Positions 9,101 through 64,000 of a DNA stretch of 64,000 nucleotides are shown in pieces. Location of the stretch: assembly GCA_964036195.1 (NCBI GenBank), contig OZ038454.1, positions 20,756,315-20,820,314 of the forward strand, given 5' to 3'. The position numbers were made by a program, and so were the translations under genes. The stretch's first letter is position 1; every line of letters begins with the position of its first letter. The DNA comes from Sphaerolaimus hirsutus (lineage: Eukaryota > Nematoda > Chromadorea > Monhysterida > Sphaerolaimidae). The notes below the pieces were generated by a model. That model ran no database searches. It saw nothing but the letters and a program-made list of their open reading frames with translations, and was not told the origin of the DNA.

Positions 9101-12100
9101 AGAGGTGTGAGGTAAAATGAGAAATAAAATATTAAAAGCGAAGTAAACTCACTTCTCTTTAAACTTCACACTTCTCATTTCACTTCACATCCCACTTGCA
9201 AATTAGTTTCACTTCTCCACTCACTCCAAGTTGCCCCACTCACCCCTGCCCCTGCCCCTCATCCTCAAGTGTCTCTGACTGGAGGCGGTGAGCGAGGGGT
9301 GGGCCCCGTAGCCGGCGGCGCCGCTGCCCGCGGCCGAGTTGATGTGGTCGGAGGCGAGGTGCGCCGCCAAGTCGTCCGTCATGTTGTTCGGGTCGGCGCT
9401 AGGCGTAGACACGCACACCGGGCAGATCACCTGCGAGGGGGGGGGGTGGGAGATGGTTTTGGAGGCGAATATAAGAAACAATTGAACATGACATATGGGG
9501 ATGGCTTTATACTAAAGCATGGCGAATCCCCCCCCCTTTCCAGATAACTTTTCGGCAACCTTCACCGTCGGAGGGTGAAAATCATGGGAACCAAAACCAG
9601 AAACACATTGGAACAGTATCGACCCGGATTGCCTTTTCGGGATCGGGATTTTTTTGTAATACTCGGGATCGCTGAATCCCGAAAAATCAATGGGCTTCCG
9701 ATCCGGGGTCCAGTCTGGACTAGGGTGTCAACTTTCCGTTTTCGTTTCGGCTTTCCGCAGGCAAATTTTTTTCCGTTTCCGCTTTCCGGCTGCTAAATTT
9801 TTTTTCCGTTTCCAGTTTTTCCGGCTCATTTTCCATTTTGCAGCTAAATTTTCAGTTTTTCTGCATTTTTCCGTTTTCCGGCTCAATTGTCGGGTTTTCC
9901 AACTTTTTTTCATTTTTTGACTCAATTTTGGTTTTCTGTTTCAGCCACACTGGTAAACACGCCTGCAGGTTACCAATTATGTGAATTTCTTCTGTTTCCA
10001 GCAAAATTTCTGCAATTTTTTCATTTCTGGGTAAATTTCTGCAATTTTTTATCGTTTCTGGCACAATTTCAGCAACTTTTTCCGTTTCCGTTTTCCGGTT
10101 TTTCATTTCTCCGTTTTCCGTTTGTCGGCAGGTGCAAAATGTTTTCCGTTTCCGTTTTCCGGCAAATGCAGGAATTTTTCCGTTTCCGTAAAAAAAATTT
10201 CTGTGGACACCCTAGCCTGCACCCAACTCGCCGCAGCACACGCGAAAGCACGACCGATCACGCTCACCTCGTAGCTAGCCCTGGGGTGCTCGACGCGCAC
10301 GTGCTCGTACAGGTTGGCTAGCGAGAAGCCGGCCGACGCGCAGTGCGGGCACACGAACGACATGCAGCGCAGCTCGTCCGCCGACGCCGGCTCGCCCCAG
10401 TAGAAGAACTCAAAGTCCGAACCGGTCATTATGCACTGCGGGTGGGCGTGGAAAAAGGTTTTTAAGACTGTTTTTTATTTCAAAAACTTTCTATATATCG
10501 ACGGCATCCACTCAGTTACACCAACACATGGACCCTCTCTACGAACCACCCCCAAAATCATGTAATCTACGTATAGTAGGGATGAAAAAACGTTGTTTTT
10601 CGAATGACCCCGTTGTTTTTTAACCTTTGAAGAATATGTATTTATTTATAGATTTTAGCTGTTCTTTATCTTGCTCAAACGCTTTTGTCGCCTACTACAA
10701 CAATACATCAAATCTATATAAACCACCCTAAATATCTACATCTGGGGAGCGATTTGCAATCTCTACAAACCACCGCAAAGGTCAAAATCTTGGAGACCTC
10801 CGCAGGACGTCAGAAACCCATCGGCGCTACGCACACTGAAGCCGAAATATTCGGCATACGCACGTTTTCATCTGCCGAATCCGAATTGAAAAATTGCCGT
10901 TCGGACGTTTTAAGTTCGGCATTTAAGGGGCTGCCATATTGAATTTTGAAAAAGTGCGCACGATATTCGGACAAATTCGGACGAATTTGAGCGTTAATTT
11001 TTAGACGCTGAAGTATGTCGAAAGCAACATACTTCGGCATTTTCTATGATAAGGACGATAGCTGAATGTGTGTATTTACCGTATTGGCTTGCGTACCGTA
11101 CCGTACTCACAATTTCGACTTCGCAGTTCAGCATTCAATATTTCATCTGATTTTGCCGAATGGTTTCCGCATGTAAAAGTGTACGCATCTTTTGAATGCT
11201 GAAATACATGCTGAATTGACAAACAGCCTAATTTTCAAGAGTACAGACGATTTAAGTTCAGCAAGTTTTTTTCTATTCAGCATTTAATTCGGCATTTGTC
11301 AAAAACGTGTGTATGCCGAATATTTCGGCTTCAGTGTGCGCAGCGCCATCAAATTCCAAAAATTTACACCTTATTAGTAAAATTGACCTGCACTGGATGA
11401 TCGGCTTCGTGATCGCCGCCGTTTCCCAGCATACCGTTTTCGTAACATTCGCGGCACAGATCAAAGTCGTAGCAAATCAGGCATTTGAAGCGGTCGCCGC
11501 TGAAGTTGCACTTGCTGCACGCGTCGCACGAAACGCCTGTTTATACATTGTCAAGTTATTGTGGATTACAGTAAGCCGCTACACTGTGCGTCAACTCGTT
11601 TCAGAATGTCAATTCAGAATTAATTGACAGGTCGCGGGACAATTTTCGAGCGCGCACGCGGCAATGTGGAAAAGGAATTGATAATTGATTGATAATTGAT
11701 ATTGAATTGATATTCACTGATGACAACTTGGCAGGCGGCCAAATATTTCGAAATCGCTATAAATATGAATAAAACAAGCTGAAAATAGGTATAGCATCGT
11801 ATGGTTGACGAAAATTACGATTATGGAAGTATATGAAGGGTGTGCTTCTAAAAGTACCGATCTACAAAAAATCGATTTTGAGATAATCGCAATTGAAAGT
11901 TTGGAGTATGCAATACCCATACATGGGTATTGGGTATGGGAATTTTGGGTATGGGTATTTCGGCCATATTGTTGGGTATCCACATGCATGGGTATAATCA
12001 TTGATTATACACATAACACTAGCTATATAAAATTTAGTGAATTGTATTTTTGTAGTACAGCACATTTTAAAGGAACAAATTGGTAATAGCATGTAGATCG

Positions 12101-13066: not shown

Positions 13067-16000
13067 ATGGCGCAGCAGCGTTACAGCGTCGCGTCTGCCT
13101 TCCAGTCGCCAGCGGGGGCGGCCTATGGGCCGGGCTACAACGCTTACGGGTCGCTGGGGCCGGCGCTGGTGCCAATCCCAGACTCTGCGAAATGCCCTGT
13201 CAAGTGTCAAATGTCACGCAAAGTGTCACCGAGTTGCCATTTTGCAGGGCATTTTACGTGACTTTTGACACTTTGCGTGACATTTGACATATGACGAGGC
13301 ACTTTACAGGGTCCGGGACTGCCCCCTGGTCGACGCCGAGGGCAACGTGTACCAGTTCGGCGGGCACGAGCAAGCGGGCATCGCGCAGGTGACCTTGGCG
13401 CAGAACCAGCAGCAGCAGGTGCAGCAGCAGCGGCAGTACGCCCAGCAGTATCACCAGCAGTTTCAGCAGCAGGTAGGGTAGGTATGGATGGGGCTGGTGG
13501 CAGTCTCGCGCCTTAGAAAGTGTCTTGTGAAACGGACTAGTTTGTTAATTGCCATGCAAAATGTCAAATGTCATGTAATGTCATACGAGTTTGTCAATGG
13601 TCATGCAAAATGTTCAAAAATAAAATCTATTAGAATTTTGTTGACATATTGCATGACAAACAGTCGAGATGCGAGATTCCGCTAGTGGGGAAATGACAAC
13701 GAGAGTGATAGGAGGTATTTTAGATCAGTAACTGACCGGTACTTTCATCCATAAACTCGTCACTTTTATCAGATAAATTAGTATCACATAAAAATACCAA
13801 GTCACCATCAACCATAATTGTCAAATTGGCACCTGCGTAAAATTACTAAAATGTTATTATTCAATAATGGTGTTATTCATAATCATCCGTCGCATTGAAA
13901 GATACATAATTCGAAACTCTGGAATATTAGTTGACAATGATATCAGCGAACGCCCCTAAAAACAAGTAGGTATTTAGCCAAGACCCCCAAGTATTGAGGT
14001 ATCACCATAGCGGATTTTGGGGTTAGCATTTTAGGGGGGGGGGGGTCAGCCGGTCAGCACGCGTTAATAACTCGGGAACCGCTTGGCGAAAAATGTTGAA
14101 ATTTGGATATGTTATGGTTTCAGGTCGGGGCTAATATCAAGTCCGACGATTTTTTTCTACGACCCCCCAGACCGGAGATAGGGGGGGTCTATAAAAACAC
14201 TGTAATTTGCGTTTTTTTGGGTGTCGCCTAGAACATGCAAACTTTGAACATCAATAGCTCGATCATTTGTGAACCGATTTTAGTCATTAAAATGTTAAAA
14301 TGATCACAAATGTTCGGAGAGTTCATTTCTGAGGTCAAATCGGAGATACACATTTGTTTATATATCGATTTAGCCCGATTTCGAAATGCAAAATTTCCGC
14401 AAAAGCTTGCTTTTTGAACATGCTATCCTATTCTCCTGATCGAGAGAAACCCAATGAAACAAAAATGAGATCGATATCTCTCTCCGATCAAAAGTTATAG
14501 CACTTCAAACTTTCACGTCCCATCCATGTAAATAACCGCATGAAGGTCAATGCGTTCAAATTCAAAACTTCATATCTCGACCATTTCTCAGCCGATTTTT
14601 ACCAATGAACACTTAAAATGATCAGAAAAACCTAAAGAGTCCAGTTGTATGTTCAAATTGTCAAGATGCTTTTTCATAATGATAATTTCATACAAGAGTT
14701 TGCATTATTTTCTTGTGTGGGAAATTTAAGTTAGGATACAGATAAGCTGAGCATACAAATGGAACTGTCAGGTTATTCTGATCATTTTAAATATTCATTG
14801 GTAAAAATCGGCTGAGAAATGGTCGAGATATGGAGTTTTGAATTTGAACGCATTGACCTTCATGCGGTTATTTACATGGATGGGACGCGAAAGTTTGAAG
14901 TTCTATAACTTTTGATCGGAGAGAGATATCGATCTCATTTTTGTTTCATTGGGTTTCTCTCGATCAGGAGAATAGGATAGTATGTTCAAAAAGCAAACTT
15001 TTGCGGAAATTTTGCATTTCGAAATCGGGCTAAATCGTTATATAAACAAATGTGTATCTCCGATTTGACCTCAGAAATGAACTCTCCGAACATTTGTGAT
15101 CATTTAAACATTTTAATGACTAAAATCGGTTCACAAATGATCGAGCTATTGATGTTCAAAGTTTGCATGTTCTTGGCGACACCCAAAAAAAACGCAAATT
15201 ACAGTGTTTTTATAGACCCCCCCTATTTCCGGTCTGGGGGGTCGTAGAAAAAAATCGTCGGACTTGATATTAGCCCCGACCTGAAACCATAACATATCCA
15301 AATTTCAACATTTTTCGCCAAGCGGTTCCCGAGTTATTAACGCGTGCTGACCGGCTGACCCCCCCCTAAAATGCTAACCCCAAAATCCGTTATGAACACA
15401 GTCCCCCCAGTCCCCATCCCCAACAGTATTTTCCCACATGATGAAAAACGTGACAAGAATACTGTTACCGTATTTCTTCTAATAAATAGAAGAGCGCCGT
15501 TCTATTTTTTTCCGACAACTTTTTTACCTGCCGTTCTATTGGAGGCTGTCGTTCTATTCTTTCACTGAGCGCAAAAACGTGCCAAAACCTGTCCTTCTAT
15601 TGGAGGTGCCATTCTATTTGAGGTATGCCGTTCTTTTAGGAGAAATACGGTATACGATCAATGAGAANNNNNNNNNNNNNNNNNNNNNNNNNNNNNNNNN
15701 NNNNNNNNNNNNNNNNNNNNNNNNNNNNNNNNNNNNNNNNNNNNNNNNNNNNNNNNNNNNNNNNNNNNNNNNNNNNNNNNNNNNNNNNNNNNNNNNNNNN
15801 NNNNNNNNNNNNNNNNNNNNNNNNNNNNNNNNNNNNNNNNNNNNNNNNNNNNNNNNNNNNNNNNNNNCAAACTGCATGGTAAGGAAACAATTTCACCCAA
15901 CTTTATAGTGGCAGCGTGAGCTATTACAAGTTTGGCACACTGGTAAAATAAAAAACTCATGTTGGGTGAAAGTGCTAGCATGTTATATGAGCATACATGT

Positions 16001-25809: not shown

Positions 25810-26123
25810 GCAAATGTCGAAGGCTGTAGACTTTATCAATCATCGAAAAAAAATATTCAACCCAAATGATACCCGACATTGAAAACTAATATCCACAAAT
25901 CCTCCCGCCTCCACGCATATGCACGCATCGGCTTTATGAGCTTATCGCACTGAAACTTCAAAGCTGCAACCCGCAAACTTCACTCATGCCGCCGCGTCCA
26001 CTTGAAGCTAGATTTTTGTGCCGCGATGGCGCCGGTGACCAGGACTGGTCGCAAAAACGTCACTGAACCCGCGCATTGCGACGATAGGGTGAGTTGGGGC
26101 GGATTTGCGTGTGAGTCAATTGG

Positions 26124-26279
26124 TGCCAATTCCAGATGCTGTAAAATGTCAAATGCCAAGTGTCGAAAGTCACGGTAAATGCCCTGCAGAATGGCAACTC
26201 TGCTGCCATCTTGCAGGGCTTTTTCATGACTTGGCACTTTGCATGGCATTTGGCATTTTACAGGATCTGGGAATGCCCC
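26124..26279. mobile_element. Family A element
   Basis: TIRs TGCCAATTCCAGATGCTG and CAGGATCTGGGAATGCC are flanked by TTGG on both sides (26120-26123, 26280-26283). The body is a palindrome with TGCCCTGCAGAATGGCA at its centre. Intergenic. Confidence 0.7.
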
Positions 26280-26833: not shown

Positions 26834-29800
26834 ATGTGCTCCTTGGTGATGCACTTCATCGAGAAGGACTGCGAGCTGAGCGAGGCGGAATTGCGCCGAC
26901 TCACCGAGCACAAATACTCGGCTACCGACTCGTCGTTTTTGGCTAAACATTTGGCGCCGTGAGTTGCGTGGTTGTTGATTTGGTTAATTTTTGTGTTAAT
27001 TTGACGCGCGCTGTCAACTGGTTTTTGCGTTCATTTTACGCGCGCTGTCAACTGGTTTCTATGCTAATTCGAATATTAATCCACTTAACAGCGATGTCCA
27101 AATGGATATAAATACCTAGCTCGATATTGAACTATGAAAATTACGACATAGTAAAACAGTGCCAACTTGTGTATATGACTGGGGCGATTTAACCTTTTAG
27201 TATCGATATACGATACTTGTTCTGAAACCAATTGTCGATATGGACCCTAAATTAGATATTCGATGTCCAATAAGAAAAAATAATCGACATCCGATTATCG
27301 ATAGGAAAAAATGGTCAATGTTCGATCGTCTCAACCCAGTTCACACTCTCCCATCCCACAACAGCTGGTGGGAGTACCTAGTGTCCAAGTGTCCCCTATG
27401 GGTGGCACCCAACGCGATCACGCTGTGCGGCCTCCTGGTGAACTTGGTCACCACCATGGTCCTGGCGAGCTACTCGGCCGATGCCAAGCAGCCGGCGCCC
27501 AGGTGCTACTCTTAGACCATGTGAAATGTCAAGTGGAAAGTGGAAAAAAGTTATGTAAAATGTCAAAAGTGTAAGTTGTAAAATGGCAAAGTTCGTTTGC
27601 GACATTGTGCCCACAAAATGTTCGTTTTCACCGGACTTCAAAACTTAATGTATAAGCGCTGAACACATTTGCGTTTTACAAAATGAGTCATTTTAATCTC
27701 GATCAACTATAGTTGATGGACACTACATTCTAGAAGACTCAAATGCACTAAAAATTATCCTAGGAATTTTCGATTGAAAAAAGTGTGCGCAGGCACTTTA
27801 CAGGTCATTTTACATGACTAATTCCACCTTGCGTGACATTTGACATTTGGTAGGGTTTGGGAGTGCCGCCCAGATGGGCGTACGTGCTGTCGGCGGTGGG
27901 CCTCTTCCTGTACCAGTCGCTCGACGCCATTGACGGTAAACAGGCGCGCCGCACGGGAACTGCCAGTCCGCTCGGGGAGCTATTCGACCATGGATGCGAT
28001 AGCGTCACGCAGACGTTTATTTCCATGCAGGTACGGTTTGAATTGACCTGTTTGGATCCTGTTGGCCCCCGCGTAGGTTGGGAATTTCAAAATTTTCGCG
28101 TTAGTGTATTGGGTTTCGGTTCCAGAATATCGGGTCAAGCCTATTACGCATGTAAACCCATCGCGCCTGTAGACCCGATACAGACACATTTTACCCGCAG
28201 GGGTAAAAAAGGGTGCGGATTGCCCCACTCCGAATCGCCCAGCTATCTATCTATCCCAGAGGCAAATTTTTTGGCTACATTCACCTGAACACCCCCCTCC
28301 CCTGCAGATTGCCTAGCTATCTAACTATCTGGAGCACTTTTGAGCAATTTTACCCTAATTTTCACCCAGGGGTCTCCCACCTAGCTGCCCCCCACCCCCA
28401 AAGCCACCAGCTATCTATCTATCCCCGAGGTCGCTCAGCTATCTATCTATCCCGAGGCAAAATTTTTGGCTACTACCCCTAAAGACCCCCCCCCCAAATC
28501 GCTCAGCTATCTATCTATCTGGAGTGGTTTTTGACAAATTTTGCCCCAATTTTCACTAAAAATCACCAATTTTCGCACCTTTTTATAGTTTTTCACCTTC
28601 AAAATCGTGCTCTCCGGCTATATGCATGGTTATATGCCTGTTTTTAGCCATTTTAAACGTACTTTTGGCCACTTTTAACCGATTTTTAGCGATTTTTTCC
28701 CCTTCCGGCCTTCTATGTACTGAAAAAGCCTATATATTTTGCCCCCGCGAGCCCCCCCAGCCCCCCCCAGAAAATTTTTTCAGCTATCTATCCCTCCGGA
28801 GGAGCGATTTGCTATCTATCCAGCCCCCGCGAGGGCCAAAATCTTGGAGACCCCTGTTTTCACCCAAAATCGCTAATTTTCATACTTTTTATAGATTTTC
28901 ACCTTCAAAATCAGTAGGTCACGTGTTTTTTTTGCCTATTTTCAGTATGCCGGGTATAATTAAATGCGTGCCGGTTCTACATGCGTGATGGGTTTACATG
29001 CGTAATGGCACAGGCCCCACAATATCTGCATGCATCGGGGTCGGGTCGGTTGCCAACGATCCCCACGCACAGTAGGGCCACATGCAGTTTACGGCCGAAA
29101 TTTTCGCTTTGGAAATCAGCTTTGGACACATTTGAGTTTACTACTAGAATTAGGATTCTATTTTTAGGAACTATTTTGTCGGAGGTTGAAAATATTTACC
29201 CTCTTCCCGCAAACTTGAAATTGTTCAAAACATATTTCTCAGTTTACGAAATTTCGACAGTAAATCACTATGTGTGGTCGGATTTCGCAAAACAGTTTTT
29301 AGATAGTCATAAGTAAAGTTAAAAGTGGTGAGAGAAGTGACGAATTAATTTTTGCCATTTCGTCCTATTTTTTTAAATAATTTTGTGCATTTTCGTCCAA
29401 CTTCACTTTCGTCACAGGTGTGTCTGACACTGCGTGTGGGCTATTGGCACGGCGTCATCATGTGGGTGGTGCCGTTCAGCGCGGCCGTGTTCTATGCCGC
29501 CCATTGGCAGACCTATGTCACTGGAACGCTGAAATTTGAGAAGTTTGTCGTTTTTTTTGTTTCATTTTTCGTTGCATTGTCTTTTCTGGTGACAGTTCCG
29601 CAAGTGTAAAAGTAAAATGACAAAATGATAAAAGCATAACGATTTGACAAATTTCAAATTTTCGATTCAAATTCATTTTTACTTTTTTAATCACATTTTC
29701 TTGTCGTTTGTCATTTGTCTCTTAACTTTTTAAATCACTCATAACTTCCCGCTTGTCAAATGACGTCGCTTTTAACATTTGTCATTTTACTTTGCCACTT

Positions 29801-32403
29801 ACGGTGCACTTCCCAACCCTACTTTCACGACCCTTGTCCCGACACTACCTGTTAGGGCCCCCACACGCTAGTTGACATCGGCACCAAATGTCAACTGGTG
29901 CCGATCCCTATTCAAAGCTTGCTGACGAGTGGACAAACGACGTTCAAACGCAATTTTTGAATTAGGAACGGAACCAGTTGACATTTAGTGTCGATGTCAA
30001 CTAGTGTGTGTGGGGCCTTAGGGGTGTAAGAAATTGCGATGTTCGCAGATTCGATGTAACCGAATGCCAAATCGTGGTGATGGCGCTGTGCTTGTTCACA
30101 GCCGTGGCCGGGCCCAACGTGTGGCTTTTGTCGGTGCGTGAATGCATATCTGTATTTATGTATGGCTTGTCTTCTATGGGGTCATTCGTTGGGGTTGTCA
30201 GGCTGACCCTCTGTGCCCGGTGACATGTAAACCCGCTGGCCATGTAGACCCGGCGGACATGTAGCGGGAGTGTCAAGGCCAGATCAGATCAAGTGATTAA
30301 AAGTGAACAGTGACAAGAAGTCATATTTTGTGTATTTATTAAGATACATAAATAGTAAATAAATAGACATTTACGTAGATAGATGTGTACTTATTTACAT
30401 TGTAAATAAATACAAATATTTATGTAGATAAATATGTATGTTTATTTACATATTTTACAACGCCGCTACATGTCGGCCGGGTCTACATGTCAGACGGGTA
30501 GAAATACATGTCTGCCGGGCCCACATGGCCAGCGGGTTTACATGCCCAGGGAGCCTACGTCATTGGGCTGGCAACTTTCCATGGTGCATTTGCACGTAAA
30601 TGAACATTTCTAACGAATTTGCCCCCCGCAGGTGCTGGGCGTGCAGCTGAACGTGATCACAGTGTCAGTGTGCTCCGTGGTCGCGGTGATCCAGTTCTAC
30701 GGCTACATTTCCACCATACTCGACGGCGGCGTGGGCAAGAACGGCACCACTGTGGCTGATACATCGGGTTTGATTGGCTGATCGACTTTTTGGGTTTGAT
30801 CTAAATATGGTTTGCCTGATTGACTGCTGTTTGGGGGGATTCGTCTTGTTTGGCCATACGTTCTTTTTGGACATCGTTCTAGGACCCATCAGGTAACATC
30901 TGGTGCCAGTTCCGCAAAATGAGAAGTAAGAAGTGGAATGGCAAAGGTGAAGTAAAAGCGCAAAGGCGAAGTGAAATGGCAAGTGAATTAGCAAGTGAAA
31001 TGGCGAAAGCGAAGAGAAATTACTTTTTATTTTTAGTTTTTTACTTCGCTATTGATAATTCACTTGCCGTTTCACGTCGCCTTCGCGCTTTTAGTACGCC
31101 TTTGCCATTTCGCTTCTCACTTCTCATTTTGCTGAACTGGCCCCTGATGTGATTTCATCGGTCGGCTTGCAGTGTACGGGACTGCCACCGGGGTGTCAAC
31201 TGGTGGCAGACCGACACCCTGTAAAGTGTCATGTAAACTTTATGGGGTGCTTTTTGGGATGCTCATAAATCAGCTTTGAACATCATTGAGATTACCAGAC
31301 TGAGTTATTTTAAATATTCGTCAACTGTGGCTGACAGACACCTTATTCTGATTATGGTAAACTAAACTGCATTCAAGGCTGATGTATGAAATTACCAAAA
31401 CCCAAGTTTACTGGCAGTAAGCTAGTGTGTGCGCAGCGCCTTTACAGGGCGCCGGATTTCCCCCTATGTTCTCAGTTTACCTAGTTCTTATCAATCCATT
31501 TGTCCGAGAGAACTCGCCATTCACCTAAATAGAAATTACCCGCGCGCAGTCATCTTCCCCGTGTTCCCGCTGGCCGCGTTCGTGCTTCCCATGGTCATGA
31601 TCTACTTCAAGTCGACCTCGGGCGTGTTCGACGACAACATCGTGCTCTACGTGCTGTTCGTCGGATTCGTCGCGTCCAAATTGTGCAATCGAATCATTGT
31701 GAGCTGTTTTTTTGCGCGTCTTGCAGATTTGTAAGGCGCGATTTGTAGGCGCCGCGCCATGGCTGGGTTGGCGTTTTCACCATCGTCTGCTATATACGGA
31801 TTTGATATTTTATATGTTACGTTTATATTTTAAAATATAGTCTGCTCGTTCAAAATCGCTATTAAAACACTTTTTATGTCTCCCCCGCCCGCCCCCAGGG
31901 TACGTACTTTTCACACGGTTGCATGGTGTCCTAAAATGATTTTAGAATATCAAAAACATGTCTCCCGCTCACTCAGATCGCTCACATGAGCCGAAGTCCT
32001 TTGTATCTATGGGATTCTGTTTACGTGGCGCCGATGTTGATGATGTTAAATCAGTACGTGGACAATTTCGTGGACGAGCTCACCATGCTCTACATCTGCA
32101 CGGTCAGTATTTTGCGCGCACTTATACTCAAGTGACTTGACACTGCACGCAGTTCCCCTAGTTGGCGGCGTGCCAACGAACACCAACTCTTGTGAATAAC
32201 GACAAAATTCGTCGCAAAATGCGACAAATATCTTTACTTCCCACTTTCCCATCACTTGACGACCCTCGGAATTGGCACCGAGCCAACCAATTTAACCCAT
32301 ACAGGCGATCGCATTGGCTAACCTGCTGCTGCACTCTGTTGTCGTGTGCAGGCAGCTGTGCGCAAAACTCAATATTTGTTGCTTTAGTATCACGCCCAAG
32401 TGA
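26834..32403 (+). CDS. CEPT1: Choline/ethanolamine phosphotransferase (CDP-alcohol phosphotransferase family)
   Basis: Exons: 26834-26958, 27365-27502, 27874-28030, 29418-29539, 30049-30133, 30632-30767, 31550-31698, 31977-32102, 32305-32403, giving about 378 aa. Residues 108-130 carry the complete family signature DGx2ARx8Gx3Dx3D (DGKQARR, then G122, D126, D130), which binds the metal and the CDP-alcohol. Other conserved blocks are [22 protein letters not shown] and a LNQY-containing segment. Several hydrophobic segments fit an integral ER or Golgi membrane enzyme making phosphatidylcholine or phosphatidylethanolamine from diacylglycerol. Start: the first ATG after the acceptor at 26815; a second in-frame ATG follows at 26849. 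The N-terminus is shorter than in vertebrate CEPT1 and a 5' untranslated exon is likely. Intron 2 is a family A element. Intron 4 appears to be GA-AG. I cannot tell choline from ethanolamine preference. Confidence 0.93.
27503..27873. mobile_element. Family A element forming CEPT1 intron 2 (introner)
   Basis: The whole 371-bp intron is a decayed family A element. It begins GTGCTACTCTTAGACC and ends GGGTTTGGGAGTGC followed by CGCCCAG. The 7-mer CGCCCAG occurs exactly at both borders (27496-27502 and 27867-27873), as a target duplication would. The donor GT is the element's 5' end and the acceptor AG lies in the right copy of the duplication. Confidence 0.85.
28136..29014. mobile_element. Two-slot ATGTAAACCC element with CTATCTATC core
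   Basis: The left end carries GCATGTAAACCCATCGCG and TGTAGACCCG. The right end is its mirror image (CATGCGTGATGGGTTTACATG). The core contains several CAGCTATCTATCTATCC segments. It lies in CEPT1 intron 3. Relatives lie at 6641-7458, 30222-30550, 44881-44990 and 45337-45713. Confidence 0.6.
29865..30017. mobile_element. Family B MITE in CEPT1 intron 4
   Basis: TIRs GGGCCCCCACACGCTAGTTG and CAACTAGTGTGTGTGGGGCC are flanked by TTA on both sides (29862-29864, 30018-30020). Together with GGG/GGC ends this fits PIF/Harbinger. Its right end lies 31 bp before the exon at 30049. Confidence 0.65.
30222..30550. mobile_element. Two-slot ATGTAAACCC element in CEPT1 intron 5
   Basis: It reads ATGTAAACCCGCTGGCCATG then TAGACCCGGCGGACATG, mirrored at the right by ATGTCGGCCGGGTCTACATG and ATGGCCAGCGGGTTTACATG. 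Inner A/T-rich GTAAATAAATA words are mirrored too. Confidence 0.6.
30902..31146. mobile_element. Family C MITE in CEPT1 intron 6
   Basis: Ends GGTGCCAGTTCCGCAAAATG and ATTTTGCTGAACTGGCCCC, mirrored body of AAGTGAAATGGCAAGTG words. Related remnants start at 29588 and 61481. Confidence 0.55.
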
Positions 32404-32420
32404 GCGATGAGTGGTTTTGT

Positions 32421-32659
32421 GGCCCTACCCACACTAGTTGACAACGACACAAAATGTCAACTGGTTCCGATCCTAATTGAAAGCTTGCTGACGAGCCCAA
32501 GAACGGCGTTCAAACGCGACAGTGTTTAGCCGGCATGAAGTATATAAGTATACAATAATACGTAGTGTTAGTAACACTGTGTTACTCGTCAGCAAACTTT
32601 GAATTGGAATCGGGACCAGTTGACATTTGATGTCGTTGTCAACCAGTGTATGTAGGGCC
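32421..32659. mobile_element. Family B MITE just after CEPT1
   Basis: TIRs GGCCCTACCCACACTAGTTG and CAACCAGTGTATGTAGGGCC, with mirrored CTGGTTCCGATCC / GGGACCAG. It starts 18 bp after the CEPT1 stop, so the 3' UTR and poly(A) signal probably lie in or after it. Confidence 0.55.
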
Positions 32660-32930
32660 AATTTGCGAATGGTTCACATTTATAGTGTGCTGTGTCGCGT
32701 TATCGCTTCTGTTGTTGTTGTCAATATTTATCTATTCAATTGGTGTTTACCTCCCTATTCGTATTTTCTTCCTAGTGTTGATAGGCTTGTATTTATTCAT
32801 GTTAGTTTTGTGCATGTTATTCGAAGGCGGTTTATCGAAATCGTGACTGCGCGGCGCAACGTTTCAGCGGTTTTACTCCACCCACACTAAAGAGTAAGGA
32901 CGTAAGGTTTTACTCCATGCGTGAGGATGA

Positions 32931-34116
32931 GGCCCGCACCATGTAAAGTGTTAAAGTGTCATCTCAAGTGTCAACTAAAAAAACAGAAATTATTTTTTTA
33001 CTGGACTTTTGCCATCTTGCATGAAGTTTGACATATTTGACATATGACAAGACATTTGATACTATATTTCACATTTTACAGGGTGCGGGACTGCCACCTG
33101 GTTACCATCACCCCAAGTGGACGAGCTACATGAAAAGTGGTTCGTGGTAAGTTCAAGTCGAGTGACAGATTTTCACCATGGGTTTACCGCTCACGATACT
33201 TAAATATCACGACTTATTACTTACCACTTAACACTTCCGTCACTTATCCACTTAGGATTTGGACCCAGGTCACGCGGACACATCCATAAAAACTTTCCGC
33301 TGCGCTGTTACAGTTTTAGAAATTCAGTTTAGCATCCAGTTCCCTTGTGCTGTTAAGTGCGCCAGTTGTTTAGTCCACGTTAGCCACTTAAAAGCAGCGA
33401 TGAAAAAATTCTTTCGAATTTTTTTTTCAATTGATTAGAATTGAGGCGTCCAATTAAAAAAGTCGATGAGTCTAAACTTGGAAAATTTGCATCAGACCCG
33501 GAATTTTCATCACTTTTTCACTTAATACCTCAAATGAAACTACTACATTAGAGTTCTAGTGCCAATCCCAGACCCTGTAAAATGTCAAATGTCATGCAAA
33601 GTGTCAAAAGTCATGGAAAATGCCCTGCAACATGGCAACCGAGTTTCCGAGAGGTTTCGAAAATTGGTTTGGTTTGAAAATGTTTAAATGATTTTTTCAT
33701 CGTTGCTGTTAAGTGGAAATGAATGCCATTCCGAGAATTTAAAGTGTGTTAGTAACGGATATTGCGGCTTTACGGACGTTCGGTCATATTGGCATCGGTT
33801 TTACGCATTGTGACCATTGCTTAGCTATTTATAATATACCATACTTCCTCTGAGGAGTCTAGTTTTATTATGTTTTCTTTCGTCAATTTTTTTGACGTGC
33901 CCTTCTATTGTAGTGTAAATAGTGTCTGCCTATAGTATGTCGGTCCTGCACCCTGTAAAACGCAAAATGTCGTACAAATTTGCCAAATGTCTTGTAAATT
34001 CCCTGGTCAAATTTTATTTTATTTTTTTACCAGCCTTTTTACTTTTTGTGTGACATTTGAGAAATTTTCATTGAATTTATATTTATCTTACATGTCGTTT
34101 TACAGGGTGCGGGATG
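32931..34116. mobile_element. Three further family A copies (32931-33098, 33559-33650, 33940-34116)
   Basis: Each has the AAATGTCAAATG-type words and at least one family end (GTGCGGGACTGCCACC at 33098, TGCCAATCCCAGACCCTG at 33559, GTCCTGCACCCTGTAAAA at 33943). The middle one is a half copy that ends abruptly. Confidence 0.55.
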
Positions 34117-34187
34117 GTGATGGAAAAGCGTCATGGCGCTTTTGGTGCTAGGCACGTTGTCGTTGTGGCGCCATTGGCGCTTACCGC

Positions 34188-34793
34188 TAGGGTTCAAACG
34201 GGATCCCGATCCCGATCCCGGATCCCGTGAAATTCCGGGATTTACCAGTCCCGATCCCGATCCCGATCCCGAAACCCCAATCCCGATCCCGATCCCGAAA
34301 TCCAAAAATAGCAATCCCGATCCCGAAAATTTTCAAATCCCGATCCCGATCCCGAGAAACTCCCAAGTCCGGGATCCCGATCCCGGAAAAATTAGTGGAA
34401 ATTATAAAACGTGAAATAATGATGTTTTTGCATGCAAAAAAGTGGATGCAAACCCCCAGTGTCAATTTTATGCCACTTTTCTGGCATCCAACAGTGTTTT
34501 GAGACCTTTATGAACAACTGTGAATGCCAGAAAAATGGCCAAAATCTCTATCCCTAGAACCCAATCCCGATCCCGGAAAAATGCCAATCCCGATCCCGTG
34601 ACCCCAATCCCGGCCAATCCCGATCCCGATCCCGATCCCGAAATCTCAAAAAAAAACAATCCCAATCCCAATCCCGATCCCGAAACCCCAATCCCGATCC
34701 CGATCCCGAAACCCCAATCCCGATCCCGATCCCGAAATCTCAAAAAGTGAATCCCGATCCCGATCCCGAGAAGTCAATCCCGTTTGAACCCTA
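34188..34793. mobile_element. hAT-like element, core word GATCCC
   Basis: It starts TAGGGTTCAAACGGGATCCC and ends CCCGTTTGAACCCTA, with exact duplication CTTACCGC (34180-34187, 34794-34801). Two arrays of ATCCCGATCCCG flank a short unique middle (about 34395-34550). It is nested in a GGCGCC-word element spanning about 34116-34936. Confidence 0.9.
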
Positions 34794-35913
34794 CTTACCG
34801 CCACACGCGGGAATAGCGCCATGGCGCTTGGCGCTCTTTTCGTGTGGCGCCAGGAACAAAACGCCTGGCGCCAGTGTCAAAACAAAAAATGCCATAGCGC
34901 TGTTGGCGCCAAAGTCGCGGCACTTTTACATCACTAGTGCGGGACAGACAAACTGGTTTTTTTCTTCGTTACTGCAGAGTGCAAAACAACAACAACACTT
35001 TTTTGGAGCTATTCCCTTCCAATAAAAGAAATACGGTAACTTTTTGAGCGCTGCCTAGTATAATTATGGGAAAATCGAAGAATATCGTTAAACACCTATG
35101 CTTGTTCTCAATGTATATAAATAATTTATGTAAATATTTAAATACCTACATAATCTTTCCTGACCAATTCTGCACTCTGTCAGTCAAGCAACATGTTTCA
35201 GCCAATCTAGCTATTTCTCGGAAAATTAGAAATTTTTTATCTGAATAGAATATTGTTTATTTTAGACGTTCGTCGTACTATAAACGTCATTTGGCGGATA
35301 ATTTCAAAATTGTAATTGCCATTTTAGAAATCAAGGCCAAATTCTGAATTTCTGAAAATTCCATCTGACATAGTGCGGAATTAGTACCCGTAAAGATTAA
35401 ATCATATTTAGTGCATATAAATACTACCGTAAGCTCTTGAATACGTTTCGCATTACTGAGCAAATATTCATTTGTCTATGTTTATTATCCAACATTGTCT
35501 ATTCGCAGAACGCCCGCTAATTAGTTACTCAATGAAACGGTCGAGTTGTGTTATTTTGGATAGCGAAGATGTTTTAGGTTTCGAACTCCTACTTTTCTGT
35601 AGGTTGTACGTTTCCCCAAGACAAAAAAACGATCCTGCACCTATTTACACGCACTAGTTAAAAAGTTAACAGAAAAGTTTTTTTCTTTTTATTTACTGTT
35701 ACTCACTTTTTCAACACTTCTCGCTTCTCAAATGATCTTTTGCTTCTCCACTTACGGAATCGAACCCTGGAAACGCCGCACAAATTGAATGTCCAGCACG
35801 CGCGAAAGCACATTGCCACATTTGAACCCCATTTGACATTGTTATAAGCAGCATTTTCACTCGACAAAATAATCATTTTAGATCGCCAATTACTGAAAGC
35901 TTGAAATTGAAAA

Positions 35914-38900
35914 ATGGATAATGATACTAATGAATTCAAACGTATGATTGATTCCTTGCACGAAGCATTTACCACGGCGTTTTTCGATGTCCAACGGGTA
36001 AATCCTTGGTGCTTTTTAATTCGACTTGAATTTAAATTTTACGGATATAAAATTGACTGCGTTCTGTGTAAAGAATGTAAAAGTGATGAAAAACCGCTGG
36101 GATGGGGCCATCTCGCCTTTCGGAAGATGACGCTAGGAACCACGGCGCCACTTTGACAGGGCGCCATGACACCGTTCCATCACCAGGGAGCAGTTCCGCC
36201 CCTGTGAAGTGTCAAATGTCATAAAATGCCATTCAACGAAAATGTTACTGAATTTTGACACTTTGCAACACATTGAGAAGTTTGCATGACATTATTCTTG
36301 ACATTTGACACTTGTCTAGTGGTGTAAAAAGCGCCACGCGCCAAAGCGCCATGACGCTTTTCCGAAACTCTGCGCCAAACACCAGAAGCGCCATGGCGCT
36401 TTTTGCTTTCCGGTGCTTTTACATCACTACCGTATTTCTCCGTGTAAAGGACCCCCCGTGCACAACACCCGGGGTGTTACACAGCTGCATAGCACCCCGG
36501 GGTGCTATGCTAGGTTTCAAAAAATCACCCAATTTGAATTGCTTAAATATCGTGCACGGCGCGCGCCACTCATTGTAATTCCGCGGCATGCATTTTTCCA
36601 CTACATTGCTGCACGCTGGGAACCAAAAAAAGCCTAAATATGTAGGGACGTGTATTTGAAGGCGTTTTGGAAGTTGAATCCACTGAATTTGGAGGTGTTT
36701 CCGTGTATAACATCCCCTGATCTAAAACCCGGGGGTTATACAAGTAAAAAAAAAGTTTGCTGGAAAGGGTCTCAAATTTGTATAGCACCCGGGTGCTTTA
36801 CACGGAGAAATACAGTACACTTGACTTCGCACTGCGTGACTGGAACCTCAAACGTAAAATAAGTTTCCAGATCCGACGTATATTATCTGAATACAAGAGC
36901 AACGAATCGGACTGGGGCCGCTACACGCTGCAATCAGCTGACAATCGCTACACGAGAAATTTGGTCACCAGCGATGTCGCTTCAGCTGGACGGGTTTGTG
37001 GGCACCAGAGTTGTTGAAAGTACTGAACTTTTTCAAAATAAATGTAAACCTGAAGTATTTTTTTTACGTACCCCTGAGTACAGGAAGTATTTTTTTACTT
37101 TTACGCTGTGTAAAGGGTAAATACCAGTATTTTTACGCGAAGGGGGGACGTGAAAGTATAATTTTTTCTCGATTTTGCACCTAGGAAGCTGTAAAAATGA
37201 GTGAAACTGAGAGTCATTGCAAATTTACCATTTCCGCTGCCATTTTTGCAGCCGGTTGATTAGTTTCAGTGGTTGTTGCTTTTTATACACAAGAATTTTG
37301 GGGATGGTCCGACCGTAAAGTAGGGGGTGCTACTTTAGGCCGGGCATCATTACGGCAGAGTTGTTAAAAGTACTGAACTTTTTTCAAAGTAAACGTAAAC
37401 GTAATGTATTTTATTTTTAGTCACACCTGAATACAGAAAACGTAAAGTAAAAAGTTTCTACTTTTACGCGTGTAAAAGGTGAGTAAACGTAAATATCTGT
37501 AAATACTCGTTTTCTTTACTCGCGTACCTTCAAAAAGTACGCGAGTAACTGAGTATCGGTATTGTTTCGGGAGGAAACGTAAACGTATTTACGCAGCACT
37601 CGAGTATACGTATTTATCGAGTAAACGTAAATACGTTTGTACAACTATGCATTACGGCCGGATTTACTTTACGGCCGGGTTTACTTTACGGCCGAGATCT
37701 CGCCTTAACGCAGTACTGTTTTGTTTGTTTGCAGTGTGAAAACAACTAAATATGTGTGTTGGGCACATGGGCGGTCCATCGGCCGCACAGTTCGGAATTT
37801 GATTTGTCACACCCCTGCGGATATAGCTTTCTCTATCGGTGGATCTTTCACATGCTCAAATTCAACAGAAAGCGGTAACATTCCTCGAATATCGCTTAGT
37901 GTAATATATATGTAAAAAAAGTAAAATAAATGTAAAAAATAGCTAATTTCTTGTTCCTAGTGCTTGATGTCGAAAGCATTAAGTACTCAAAAAATGTCGG
38001 GGGAGGGGGGCGAAACGTCCACATTGCGTTAAAATCAATATTTTCCAAAAAAGCCCCCCCCCCCACCTCAAAAGCATCCAAAACACCACTCCCCAGTACA
38101 ACATCATGGTGCTGCACTGGCCCGGGGGGTCGGCGAGCGGCGTGCACGACCACAGCGGCGCCGGTTGCTTCGTCAAGGTGCTCGCCGGCCGCTTGCAGGA
38201 GACCCTCTACGAGGCACCCCCGCCCTGCTGCCCCGGTGGCAGTCCCGCGCCCTGTAGAGTGCCCTGTGATAGGTGAAATGTCATGGAAGGTGTCTGAAGT
38301 CATGTAAAATGCTCTGGAAAGTGGCAAACGAGTTTGTCATTTTCCACGGCATTTCACATGACTATTGACATTTTCCGGGGCATTTTACATGACTTTTGAC
38401 ATTTTACAGGGTCTAGGAGTGCCTCCCAGGGAGACCCCTCGTGCAGAAGCATGCCAATGTGTACCACAGTGATGCAGTAACTTATATAGATGGTCAGGTT
38501 TTATATGGGGATGGCCTTTTCTCTCGCGTGGAATGTCGGAGATATTTACGAATTTCGAACTCTTTTTTTTGTTTTAGGCGCAAATAAAGTTTAACGCCTT
38601 TCAGACACGATGGGCATCCACAAAATGGGCAACCCGGACGTCCGGCTGCCGGCCGTGTCGCTGCACGTTTACGTTCCAGCTTTTGAGCAGGTGCCACTTG
38701 CGCACTTTGTCAAGTGACAGGAAAGGTCGCAATTGCAGTGGCGCTGACATATTTATTAATCCCGCGGAGCGTGATATCATGTGGCAGTCCCGCACCCTGT
38801 AAACTGCAAAGTTAAGTGTAGTGTCAAATGCCATGTGAAATGTCAATAAAAGATTTTATTACTGAGCTTTTGAGATCTCACATGACATTCGACAAATTTG

Positions 38901-39355
38901 TAAGAGATTTTGCATGAAATTTGACACTTTAAACTTTACATCTTTAAACTCTTAAACTTTACAAGGTGCGGGACTGCCCCCACATCATAGAGTTTACCCA
39001 TAGTATACATCATAGAGTATACCCTAAGATATCCCCCTCTGGGGTCTTAATCGAGCAATTTCTTAGAGGGATTTTTTTGCATAACTACGACTTGTTCTAC
39101 GTCGTCACTCGACAAAGTGTGCAATCGCCCCAGTGCCACGTGTTCGATCAACGCACGAGCGAGCCGCGGACTGTGCGATTCACATTTTGGTCGCACTTTG
39201 GCACCCTCAGAGACAGACAGGCCAGTGGGGTTCTTATGCTCCCCGTGAACATTGGGCATGCATTTGTATTTTTTATTTCATTATTATTGAATTGGCACTA
39301 CAAAAATACCGTATTACCTCGAATTATCCCCCCTCAAAATTGGCTCGGGAAATAA
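35914..39355 (+). CDS. CDO1: Cysteine dioxygenase
   Basis: Exons: 35914-35997, 36871-36993, 38097-38235, 38430-38492, 38605-38690, 39134 onward. The enzyme oxidises L-cysteine to cysteine sulfinate in the cytosol with a mononuclear iron. The iron ligands His86, His88 (VHDHSGAGCF) and His142 are present. So are Cys93, which in the mammalian enzyme cross-links to Tyr157, and its partner Tyr159 in SLHVY with the Ser and His of the catalytic triad. The RYTRNL arginine is also kept. The conserved part ends near FGTLRDRQASG. The open frame then runs to TAA at 39355, adding residues partly encoded by a transposon end. A donor near 39224-39231 joined to an exon at 42180 is a good alternative. Intron 3 (38236-38429) is exactly a family A element. 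Confidence 0.92.
36190..36316. mobile_element. Decayed family A copy in CDO1 intron 1
   Basis: It has end-like CAGTTCCGCCCCTGTGAAG and an inner palindrome of GTCAAATGTCAT and GACATTTGACAC. The right end is degraded. Confidence 0.5.
36317..36429. mobile_element. Short element, core word GCGCCATGGCGC
   Basis: The ends TAGTGGTGTAAAAAGCGCC and GGTGCTTTTACATCACTA are inverted repeats, and the core is GCGCCA words. The same ends bound the interrupted copy at about 34116-34936. Confidence 0.6.
36428..36817. mobile_element. TACCGTATTTC-end element, core of CCCGGGGTGTTACAC words
   Basis: It starts TACCGTATTTCTCCGTGTAA and ends TTACACGGAGAAATACAGTA with TA borders, abutting the previous element. It ends 53 bp before CDO1 exon 2. 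Confidence 0.65.
38236..38429. mobile_element. Family A element forming CDO1 intron 3 (introner)
   Basis: The 194-bp intron starts GTGGCAGTCCCGCGCCCTGT and ends GGGTCTAGGAGTGCCTCCCAG. Both TIRs sit at the splice sites. The borders read CCCCGG and CCCAGG, a 5-of-6 match that fits a decayed target duplication. Exon phase (1) is kept, and the joined codons give CCPGRPLVQK in the CDO frame. Confidence 0.88.
38782..38980. mobile_element. Family A element inside CDO1 intron 5
   Basis: The ends TGGCAGTCCCGCACCCTGTA and AAGGTGCGGGACTGCC form the family TIR. This copy sits in the middle of an intron, so it is an ordinary insertion and not the intron itself. I see no clean target duplication. Confidence 0.7.
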
Positions 39356-41998
39356 TAACCCCCCTCGAAATACCCCCCTCCGGGATGCTGCACATCATGT
39401 ATGCGATGTACATGGATGTATTTATTACTGCTAATTTGCACTGCAGCTACACAGACTAGTTTGTAGCTATCTACTTGGTCCGGCTGAAAAGTCCCCGAGC
39501 AGCGCTCGCCACTCGCGCTAGGGCTAAGCTACGGTCATAAAATTTTGACAGGTTAAGATATCAGGTGTTTTGAGTTTTCACCTAAAATTTTACCCTCCTA
39601 GCTCCACCCACTGCAGAACTGTGGGGGTTACAATTTCGGTCATTTTGTACTGATGTAAACACCTTCCCGGACAAGTTCACCACCCATTTTTTCATTTCAT
39701 TTTGAACGCAATATCTCCGTCCATGGGGGTGTTATAAGGCTGAAACTTTGTATATATAAAGTTGTAAGACCCCCTCACTCCCCAACAATGGGGGGAGGTG
39801 CGGCGACTCACTACAGGGTGGGTCGTTCTATATGCAACAATTTTTGTGGCGTTTTTGGTGTCCCAAGCAAGTTCACCACCCACTTGATTAGCTATACTTT
39901 GAAGGCTATATCTCCAGCTGTGAGGGCGGTAGAAAGCTGAAATTTGGGGGATGTCTTGCCAACAACCCCCCTCACAATACACCAGTGGGGCGGCTGCCGA
40001 CGACCCACTATAGCATGGGTCACTGCATATAAAGTTGATAATTTTTTAAGAACAGCCCAAGTGTCAGAAACAAGTTCGCCACCCAACTGCATTACAAAAA
40101 AATGTTGTGAGAACATACCTGATATAAAATTGAATCAGATTTGAACCCTAGTTCTGCTCATAAAAATTTTTTCAGTAGGGCACCCACCCTGTCCCATAAA
40201 CAGCAGACAGAAAATTTCACTTTAAACCAATTTTTTGTATCACACTTAAAAAGTTGGTTTACAAAGTTCACTAGGGGAGGGTCTAAGGTTCAAAGTTATG
40301 TAAACAACATAACCTCTAAAATGCTTCCATAAGGAAATTTATTTGGTGTGAATGAAAAAGTGAAAATTGTGTCAAATTTTGTTCCTGAAATGACATCATT
40401 TTGATATCATAGAATTCACCCCAAGTAAATTTCTTTATGAAGGCATTTTAGAGGTTATGTTGTTTACATAACTTTGAACCTTAGACTATTCTCTAGTGAA
40501 CTTTGTAAACCAACTTTGTAAGTGTGAAACAAAAAAATGGTTTAAAGTGAAATTTGCATTCTACCATTTATGGGACAGGAAGGGTGCCCTACTGAAAAAA
40601 AATTTTATGGCTGAAATAAGTGTTCCAACCCGATTCAGTTTTATATTAGGTATGTTGTTGCAACATTTTTTCAATGCAGCTGGGTGATAAACTTGTTTTG
40701 GGACACTTGGGCTGTTTTTAGAAAATGGTCAACTTTATATGCAGTGACCCATGCTTTAGTGGGTCGTTGGCAGCCGCCCCACTGGTGTATTGTGAGGGGG
40801 GTTGTTGGCAAGACATCCCCCAAATTTCAGCTTTATACCCCCATCACAGCTGGAGATATGGCTCTCGTAGTGTAGCCAATCAAGTGGGTGGTGAACTTGT
40901 TTGGGACACCAAAAACGCCAAAAAAATTGTTGCATATAGGGCGACCCACCCTGTAGTGAGTCGCCGCACCTCCCCCATTGTTGGGGAGTAGAGGGGTCTT
41001 ACAACTTTATATATACAAAGTTTCAGCTTTATAACACCCCCATGGACGGAGATATTGCATTTGAAGTGAAATAAAAAAATGGGTGGTGAACTTGTCCGGG
41101 AAGGTGTTTACAAATGATGCTCTAGCTCAATGCTGCCTTAAGTTGTCATCATGAAACTTTGGCTAGTAAGCCACCAGTGTTGGCAATGTGCTGATAGTAT
41201 TCGACATTTTCATCAACATCATTGATATTAAGGTAAAATAAATATGCAGATCAGGGTGATGTGCAAGAAACGTGGGAACTGTGATGGATGTTTTTGGTGA
41301 TCATCTGAGATCATGTTGTATTGCAGTGATTTTAATGTTGTTTTGAAATGTGCAGTAAATTAATCATGTGAAAAAAATTTCCCTAGGTTTCATTACTAAT
41401 CTGTAGGGGACACATGACCTGTGTTCAACAGCAGTGTGCATGCAAAATGCATCCTGTATTAACCAACTGTAGAGGCAGAATGATGAATTTGGTAGTGACA
41501 GTCATGACAATATGGACTAGGTTTATGATATCATAGCTGATGTTGGTTAGTTCTGGCATATTGTCAACACTGGTGGCTTACACTAGCCAAAGTTTCATGA
41601 TCACAACTTAAAGCATCATTGAGATAGAGCACCATTTGTATATCAGTACAAAATGACCGAAATTGTAACCCCCACAGTTACACAGTGGGTGGAGATAAAG
41701 AGGTAAAATTTTAGGTGAAAACTCAAAACACCCTGATATCTTAACCTGTCAAAATTTTATGACCGTAGCTTACCCCTAGCGCGAGTGGCGAGCACTGTTC
41801 GGGGACTTTTCAGCCGGACCAAGTACATTTTTATGCCCAAATATATCCTGTTTGTACACATTTACTGCCTGTTTTGGGTACGCCAATGCCTACTATTTAC
41901 TACGATCCTCACGAAAATTACTGACGAAAATAATAAACCCCCGTCAAATTTTGCTGGCGAAATAATAAATCCCCATGGGCGTATTTCGAGGTGCGAGG
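39307..41998. mobile_element. TACCGTATT-end element split by a large foldback
   Basis: The left part (TACCGTATTACCTCG, then C-run words) ends at 39471. The right part (41826 to about 41998) has matching AATAATAAATCCCC and GTATTTCGAGG. Between them sits the foldback at 39474-41823. The left end overlaps the readthrough C-terminus of CDO1. Confidence 0.6.
39474..41823. mobile_element. Foldback element about 2.35 kb with TA duplication and a nested foldback
   Basis: It starts CTTGGTCCGGCTGAAAAGTC and ends GACTTTTCAGCCGGACCAAG, flanked by TA (39472-39473, 41824-41825). The arms are long and mirrored around about 40380. The right arm alone holds a second palindromic insert (41111-41638, ends CAAATGATGCTCTAG / GAGCACCATTTG with TA). 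Confidence 0.75.
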
Positions 41999-43266: not shown

Positions 43267-62941
<19,675 letters not shown>

Positions 62942-64000
62942 CTGGGAAAAGTAGAAATTATGGTTACCGTACCATATTCCCTAGAAATGCCCCCACGGGG
63001 TTTATTTTTTCAGTGTGCAAATTTTGAGGGGTAATTCGAGGGGGGTTCTTTTTCATAAGCTCGCTCAGACCTGGCGGTATTTCGACGGGGGCATTTCAAG
63101 GTAATACGGTATATGGTTAAGTTAAGGAAGCTGTATGAGTGGAGACCATGTTATTGCATGTGAACCAGTGTCATGAATTTTCACCAGCTGCTTTTTACTC
63201 AACCAAATTCCACTATGGCAAACTGCCAAGTTTTACTGATCTCACACCTACTCGTTGGATGAGCGACAAAGTAAGGCAACGGAAAAGCGACTACCGATTG
63301 AATTCGCAACGCACAATGGTGAATTCACCGAAGTGAATATCACAGGTGTACGCTACGTCAATTAAGTTAGCTTTTTAGCGAATGGCGTTTTTATCAACGC
63401 ACTAGCAATTAGTTGAATTCTAATTTACACCAAGGGGTCCGAAGTTTTTTAGAAGAGATTTTATTTTAGGCGATTTTTAGACTCAGAATTCACACATTCA
63501 GATAGAACACAGGGAACACACTGAGAATGAGTTTCTAACCAGCGGCACAAAACCTTCGAAAACACTCCAAGAAATAAAACCGAAGCAATTTCGACTGAAT
63601 CGACCCCTACTCTAAATTACGGTACGCTTTTATACGCAACAACATAAGCCAAGTCCAGACAACACTTCCACATACCACGAGAAGCATGCTTACAGCCGAT
63701 TTGACGGACACACGGAATTTGAAAATGGGCATACCTAAAATTATTCACGGCGTCAGTTTACAGGATATGTCGATCAAAGTACACAAAAACACAAAGAATT
63801 CACGCGCAAAAAATGGATGGGAACGGGAACGAGTACGAAAATAGAAAATGAACGAATGCGAGAAGAATAAAAAGAACAGGGAAAACACAAGAGATACTGT
63901 AAAAACTTGTTTTAGCGCGAAAAAATGGCGGGCGATTTAAAAATTACTCAGCGAATTCTACCGAAAATCCAAAACCACCTCCACGAACGGGGAAACACAC
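62942..64000. other. Upstream intron of PRKAA
   Basis: It contains a TACCGTA-end element (62965-63111) and otherwise unique sequence. A search by eye for the kinase glycine loop on the minus strand found nothing convincing, so the first coding exon(s) are probably outside the window. Confidence 0.45.

Follow-up and report, generated by a model that had tools for sequence, protein, structure and literature searches.

A transposon family that probably acts as an introner in Sphaerolaimus hirsutus and may take its 3′ splice sites from a duplicated CNG target

We analyzed a 64,000-nucleotide (nt) stretch of the genome of the nematode Sphaerolaimus hirsutus (OZ038454.1, positions 20,756,315 to 20,820,314; contig C6 of a 348-Mb, 762-contig assembly), called the window below, in which two unrelated genes, CEPT1 and CDO1, each contain an intron made up of a single copy of one transposable element with terminal inverted repeats (TIRs), referred to here as family A, plus its duplicated target. 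The CEPT1 gene (26834..32403, plus strand) has 9 exons (26834-26958, 27365-27502, 27874-28030, 29418-29542, 30049-30133, 30632-30767, 31550-31698, 31977-32102, and 32305-32403), encodes 379 amino acids, and has 8 introns, all of them GT-AG. The 3′ part of CDO1 (38097..39223, plus strand) comprises exons at 38097-38235, 38430-38492, 38605-38690, and 39134 to at least 39223. The two introns in question lie at 27503-27873 in CEPT1 and 38236-38429 in CDO1, a placement proposed in an earlier note on this DNA and borne out by reconstruction of the exons and proteins. In CEPT1 the element forms the body of intron 2 (27503..27870, plus strand; 5′ GTGCTACTC..., 3′ ...GAGTGCCGCC); the left target copy, CAG at 27500..27502, supplies the final bases of exon 2, and the right target copy, CAG at 27871..27873, is the 3′ splice site. 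In CDO1 the element (38236..38426, plus strand; 5′ GTGGCAGTCCC..., 3′ ...GAGTGCCTCC) is likewise the intron body, with the right target copy, CAG at 38427..38429, as the 3′ splice site and a left target copy at 38233-38235 that now reads CCG. As the earlier note had stated, the first dinucleotide of the element is GT in both introns. The ends of both introns are mutually inverted repeats (0/500 shuffles for each), and in a TIR scan the CEPT1 copy matched 17/24 positions at one end of the element and 18/24 at the other.

Removal of 27503-27873 joined the exons into the complete 379-residue CEPT1 protein, a 149-residue part of which aligned to a solved CHPT1/CEPT1 structure with the junction between APR and WAY gapless (9uet_A, E=1.3e-45). 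Among the best 120 of 4,441 protein matches, nematodes dominated the top with 46-53% identity (Plectus sambesii, 53%), the single top score being a 662-residue scorpion model at 40% identity; ticks and insects came after. Removal of 38236-38429 restored CDO1 (6bgf_A, E=1.4e-18) with a junction in a loop aligned with a 2-residue gap, so that this boundary was less sharply tested by conservation; the expectation that conserved protein would run across both junctions held without a gap for CEPT1, and for CDO1 with that short gap. If left unspliced, both genes lose their frame, because each intron length (371 or 194 nt) leaves a remainder of 2 when divided by 3, and read-through runs into stops.

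Family A is abundant in the genome. Its 24-base end had 10,138 matches with at most 2 mismatches (5,126 + 5,012), whereas the reversed control had 0; since one copy can be matched twice and diverged copies are missed, the copy number lies in the thousands but is not fixed. Exact ends preceded by CAG numbered 481, the CDO1 intron used as a genome query returned 2,329 first-look candidates (40 scored), and an exact 21-base piece of the TIR gave 0 matches in viral and genome contig collections. For a closer description we took 100 loci, of which L001-L030 were chosen by likeness to the CDO1 element and L031-L100 were the exact 24-mer matches met first when following the order of the genome, which all fell on one contig. 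Seven loci were excluded because they overlapped, were duplicates, or had an unclear left end (L006, L011, L028, L030, L056, L079, and L100) and nine for a right end with fewer than 18/24 matches (L031, L032, L035, L048, L049, L058, L075, L086, and L099), which left 84 two-ended copies. These had the overall form GTGCCARTCCC...GGGACTGCCCC, usually with targets as CWG-GTGCCARTCCCRGACCCTGTAAAA...TTTTACAGGGTCYGGGACTGCCCC-CWG, and lengths of 113-379 nt (median 188); the right end has two bases unlike the left, and the ends found in the window are variants of GTGGCAGTCCCAGACCCTGTAAAA. Among the copies from L001-L030, where the first two bases were left free, 24/26 started with GT. Two of the loci, L055 and L056 (contig C1, 7.82 and 7.86 Mb; separation ~35 kb), share the same element ends and nearest flanks and may stem from a duplication that took the element with it.

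The left target triplets of the 84 copies were CAG (39), CTG (31), CCG (5), CGG (2), and others (7), and the triplets on the two sides were identical in 52/84 (shuffles: mean 26.4, maximum 36), as expected of a 3-bp target duplication. In those 52 copies C preceded the left target in 37 and G followed the right target in 34; the preferred target is therefore CCWGG, with the central CWG duplicated. Duplications of 7 bp or 5 bp were rejected: the left target is followed by a fixed base, which belongs to the element, and the right target by a variable one. The exact 7-bp repeat CGCCCAG, on which the earlier note had relied for CEPT1, is present, but the target duplication of the family accounts for three of its bases; the remaining four overlap with the 3′ end of the element itself. 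The related claim, that the intron's AG comes from the right-hand flanking repeat, stood insofar as the duplicated target forms the intron's 3′ end, although the CDO1 duplication, with CCG and CAG as its flanks, is no longer identical. A consensus of 68 copies (189 nt) folded as one hairpin with 88 pairs and −164.6 kcal/mol, so that by this prediction family A is a near-perfect foldback hairpin. In the consensus a CAG near the 5′ end pairs with a CTG near the 3′ end, which may be chance. Conservation of the stem was considered as a sign of an RNA role and dropped, as exonic and other copies gave no clear difference; the commonest double stem changes recur in many copies and so may reflect subfamilies or exchange at the DNA level. 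Short length, TIRs, target duplication, and high copy number are those of a miniature inverted-repeat transposable element (MITE), as is its non-coding character, judged without a protein search of the element. CACTA, Harbinger, and Zator are among the DNA-transposon superfamilies with 3-bp target duplications.

Many family A copies appear to sit in exons. With GC content of at least 0.5 taken as exon-like, 25/58 pattern-sampled copies had such flanks, compared to 302/1832 CWG sites in the window (16.5%; p = 1.6e-6) and to 19.1% of 2,682 CWG sites farther out in the flanks of these loci; GC content is only a proxy for exons, and protein homology is firmer. For the latter we joined the flanks after removing the element together with a single copy of the target. 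The conserved protein continued gapless across the junction in Na/K-ATPase alpha (CAG copy), in ATRX (CGG copy, 109 residues), in DCAF13/Sof1 (CCG copy, 85 residues), and in SLC23 (SLC23A1; CTG copy, 74 residues). OSCP1 (CTG copy) matched its Pfam profile at 4.4e-17, with profile positions 48-89 on residues 7-48 (42 on 42); in an AMP-binding enzyme (CTG left, CAG right) the domain match spanned the junction; and a STARD10-like protein (CAG copy) was restored with a one-residue gap beside it. A calpain domain III match across the junction (CTG copy) was weak, with 22.3 bits for a cut-off of 21, and a PDB search with that peptide found no match. Right-end CAG copies besides those in CEPT1 and CDO1 are thus found in the Na/K-ATPase, AMP-binding enzyme, and STARD10-like genes. 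In all gene copies identified the element was in sense orientation, and joined peptides in sense reached the Pfam gathering score in 8/40 cases (39 loci), whereas antisense peptides did so in 0/30 (29 loci), with one sub-threshold match; these results favour insertions in genes being sense-only. Unrelated genes therefore share introns, inferred as such from their proteins, that are alike up to both splice sites, and the proposal that a TIR DNA-transposon family generates introns in this genome gains support from genes well beyond the two first noticed. Two other approaches, a retrained codon-usage model, which drifted into GC-rich wrong frames, and an amino-acid score for calling the strand, failed and were not used as evidence.

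The copies in exons also bear on whether a terminal AG is needed. The earlier note had suggested that an AGG-like target decides which copies can be spliced; this was not supported, as copies with CTG, CCG, or CGG interrupt conserved parts of OSCP1, SLC23, DCAF13, and ATRX, and CTG on both sides was no less frequent among copies with exon-like flanks (10/42) than among the others (6/42); CAG on both sides occurred in 21/42 and 13/42. On the sequences at hand, the rule of AGG targets is replaced by a preference for CCWGG and a 3-bp duplication that supplies the 3′ end. The need for AG is doubted because insertions at CTG, CCG, and CGG, which would be expected to be missing from exons if AG were needed, are there. 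The CAG copies fit the GT-AG rule; exact removal in SLC23, OSCP1, DCAF13, and ATRX leaves an intron without terminal AG, and the CTG, CCG, and CGG copies misfit the rule if removal is exact. From these genes it would follow either that this worm splices non-AG acceptors or that ATRX, SLC23, OSCP1, and DCAF13 are spliced imprecisely. The right ends add a further pattern: among CTG-left copies, 12/31 had AG at the right end or close by, compared to 1/18 CTG-right copies with CAG on the left (Fisher p = 0.017, a count that permits shifts for right ends but not for left ones; requiring exact triplets gave 6/31 vs 1/18, p = 0.24). CTG on the left with CAG on the right was seen at L050, L061, L062, L077, L091, and L019, and the reverse once, at L009. 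Copies of the L050 type look like insertions whose CTG acceptor later became CAG by mutation. A fair reading would be that non-AG ends are tolerated and that AG ends may be better.

The next CDO1 intron (38691..39133, plus strand; GTGCCA...GCCCCAG) lies between an exon-final CAG and CAG and also has inverted ends, 21 bases with 19 matching (score 17 vs at most 12 in 500 shuffles). Its left end, GTGCCACTTGCGCACTTTGTCAAGTGAC..., was unmatched by the family A consensus, and its end sequence occurs in the window at these two ends only. By the same test none of the eight remaining CEPT1 and CDO1 introns had inverted ends. The intron at 38691-39133 is probably an introner, that is, an intron-generating element, of a second family.

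We propose that family A is very probably a non-autonomous, MITE-like foldback DNA transposon acting as an introner. Insertion, to judge from the flanks of the 84 copies, occurs mostly at CCWGG with duplication of the central CWG; a sense insertion in an exon then puts GT straight after C-W-G, because the 5′ terminus of the element is GTGCC. The intron would terminate in the right-hand target copy, as it does at the level of DNA and protein in CEPT1 and in the conserved genes tested, and presumably also in RNA, and since it ends with that copy the original exon would be restored exactly; a CAG target gives an ordinary GT-AG intron. In these steps we have high confidence. For CTG, CCG, and CGG targets, equally exact removal would depend on splicing at a 3′ site other than AG, which this worm's spliceosome apparently accepts, and the hairpin may assist by holding the two intron ends together; as to the spliceosome accepting such triplets, we consider the scales evenly balanced. 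The full reading, to which we give a probability of roughly 0.48, is that the 3′ splice site of this introner family is the duplicated CNG itself, with CAG, CTG, CCG, and CGG all working, that AG would be dispensable and a 5′ GT and sense orientation required, and that non-AG copies may later gain an AG, in which case splice sites would be seen to mature once the intron has arisen; because the second family in CDO1 has similar outermost bases and a like target, one transposition system may stand behind several introner families. We infer intron gain from the duplicated target.

A number of observations weigh against this proposal. The pattern that retrieved L031-L100 already included GT; this dinucleotide is present in the gene copies identified, but most of them came from a search with such a pattern. 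Two of the 8 sense Pfam matches bypass the junction, one (RsmB-F) lying to its right and the other (PDZ) starting there. The peptides were picked by eye, mostly one frame per strand and locus, and antisense peptides were untried at sense-matched loci, so that the contrast between strands was not blind; a codon model for calling the strand was right in 5/11 cases and was not used as evidence. Stem pairing was no better kept in exonic copies than in others, and the asymmetry of AG between right and left ends described above hints that AG is favored. The last point would also suit an explanation that we regard as a serious though lesser possibility, in which the non-AG copies use a nearby ordinary AG, or are damaging alleles or parts of decaying genes, and only the CAG copies are true introners. 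We searched for GT-AG alternatives up to 30 nt into the left exon and 70 nt into the element and from −90 to +48 nt at the right end. In DCAF13 a GAG 6 nt downstream keeps the frame with the loss of two residues, and used together with a GT located 6 nt into the element it changes VE to VP with net length unchanged; the frame would also be kept by a GAG 9 nt downstream at L018 and by a GGAG 9 nt upstream at the calpain copy. In ATRX, SLC23, and OSCP1, by contrast, there was no nearby in-frame GT-AG pair sparing the conserved residues: the nearest alternative in ATRX deletes 12 residues or rewrites 19 nt, that in SLC23 adds 51 nt, and that in OSCP1 rewrites the residues YDL and adds 3. Nor do the non-AG copies look newly arrived, since the five identified by Pfam differ from the consensus by 6.4-12.5% inside the element, like the rest (median 9.9% in 45 others), a divergence that is not a strict age. 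The two halves of the ATRX locus matched the assembly at 81 and 98% and 17 other matches had only 27-57% identity, so no intact second copy of the segment is in sight, a further point against this explanation. The canonical alternative in DCAF13 and the weaker test with exact triplets nevertheless reduced our confidence in non-AG splicing.

Direct use of the target triplet as acceptor has also to be set against an unlikely possibility, that the hairpin rather than splice signals defines the intron and is excised by a non-canonical route such as those of euglenids and Amoebophrya. The whole element folds back so that its two ends lie together at the stem's base, some ends lack AG, and in those organisms introns combine inverted repeats and direct repeats with non-canonical borders, as far as the available parts of the reports go (PMC4770533, PMC7789003). 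A reverse-read hairpin would fold about equally well, though, and the identified gene copies are all in sense, with antisense Pfam matches at 0/30; pairing is not better conserved in exons, and the other 7 introns of CEPT1 are GT-AG. The same bias toward sense makes it very improbable that the copies are cut from the DNA in body cells in the manner of ciliate internal eliminated sequences: exact cutting at the duplicated triplet would require no splice signals, but the copies are present in the assembly, and orientation should not matter for excision from DNA. Least probable of all, in our view, is that the element landed in pre-existing introns whose ends coincide with its own by chance. Family A copies do lie within larger introns, one with both ends loosely matched at 31203..31463 (plus strand) in CEPT1 intron 6 (30768-31549) and one at 38781..38980 (plus strand) nested in the CDO1 intron 38691-39133, but both are clear of the splice sites, whereas in several genes the exonic copies coincide base for base with both splice sites, the duplicated target being divided between the exon ends.

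In the DNA-transposon introners described by Huff, TIRs and a target duplication reportedly go together with two splice sites, of which the element provides one and the target the other, and family A shows the same arrangement, with GT from the element and the last triplet from the target. Splicing without a required acceptor AG is said, by the title of a 1993 paper of Aroian and colleagues, to occur in Caenorhabditis elegans, and removal of Tc1 from nematode pre-mRNA by splicing is said to be the subject of a 1996 paper of Rushforth and Anderson; both reportedly concern single genes or insertions. The situation here, if non-AG splicing is true, differs from those C. elegans cases in being genome-wide and set by the target. 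Our literature search, open-access and partial in coverage, found no nematode introner family, and one survey of intron gain in nematodes, in the part available, suggests that sources may lie in still unread sequence, with introners as an example. The broad survey of Gozashti et al. (2022; PMC9860276) found introners in 175 of 3,325 genomes and in only two animal groups, copepods being named, and the words nematode, tunicate, and metazoa are absent from the available portion of its main text. As described there, its introners resemble family A in forming families of similar introns that reach the splice sites, many with TIRs and target-site duplications, in drawing their two splice sites from different sources, the element and the target, and in enrichment in GC-rich genes (PMC9860276). 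They differ in that their rare splice sites are 5′ ones (GC, GA), non-AG acceptors set by the target going undescribed in that portion, and in having from 5 to >2,000 intron copies per family, where family A has thousands of copies, part of them introns (PMC9860276). The introner elements of the dinoflagellate Amoebophrya, in the accessible part of their description, are similar in their inverted repeats, 3-5 nt direct repeats spanning the exon borders, hairpins, and non-canonical borders; their inverted repeats are 8-20 nt and their borders highly variable (PMC7789003), whereas family A is a single family whose end carries GT and whose foldback runs the full length of the element. The non-conventional introns of euglenids, as partially available to us, share a hairpin that joins the ends and a proposed MITE origin, and a CAG/CTG pairing near their ends resembles that in family A, which may be chance (PMC4770533).

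Three more family A copies lie in the window, all on the plus strand. The one at 13169..13325, with CTG on both sides, is inside an open reading frame (ORF) that reads MAQQRYSV...GPAL before it and VDAEGNVYQF... after it; a Pfam search with this ORF found no match, and the copy may be another intron of the same kind. A copy with TTG on both sides (26123..26279) is outside identified exons, and one at 62208..62399 is upstream of an exon of the minus-strand AMPK-alpha-like gene, off the exon boundary. That gene (45070-62942, at least 17 kb) and a KCMF1-like gene (9344-11537, minus strand) were each located with a human protein as the query. Within the AMPK-alpha gene span are two 300-nt direct repeats (47981-48280 and 58033-58332; 99% identical, ~10 kb apart), and a 575-aa ORF at 54070-55797 looks by eye like a retroelement gag-type protein; a homolog search with it found no match among 7,996 scored candidates. 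The window also contains a large foldback at 14038-15366, with 451-nt arms (95% complementary, 78 nt apart) within 184-nt outer arms (99%), and nested inverted repeats across ~2.3 kb downstream of CDO1 (39469-41828).

How introns originate, and what signals a newborn intron needs, are long-standing questions. Family A offers thousands of alike insertions whose main difference lies in three target bases, in an animal genome assembled largely at chromosome scale, and these would be natural test cases. If the CTG, CCG, and CGG copies are truly spliced, the need for AG would become testable in nature by counting reads, and nematodes would join the few animal groups with introners.

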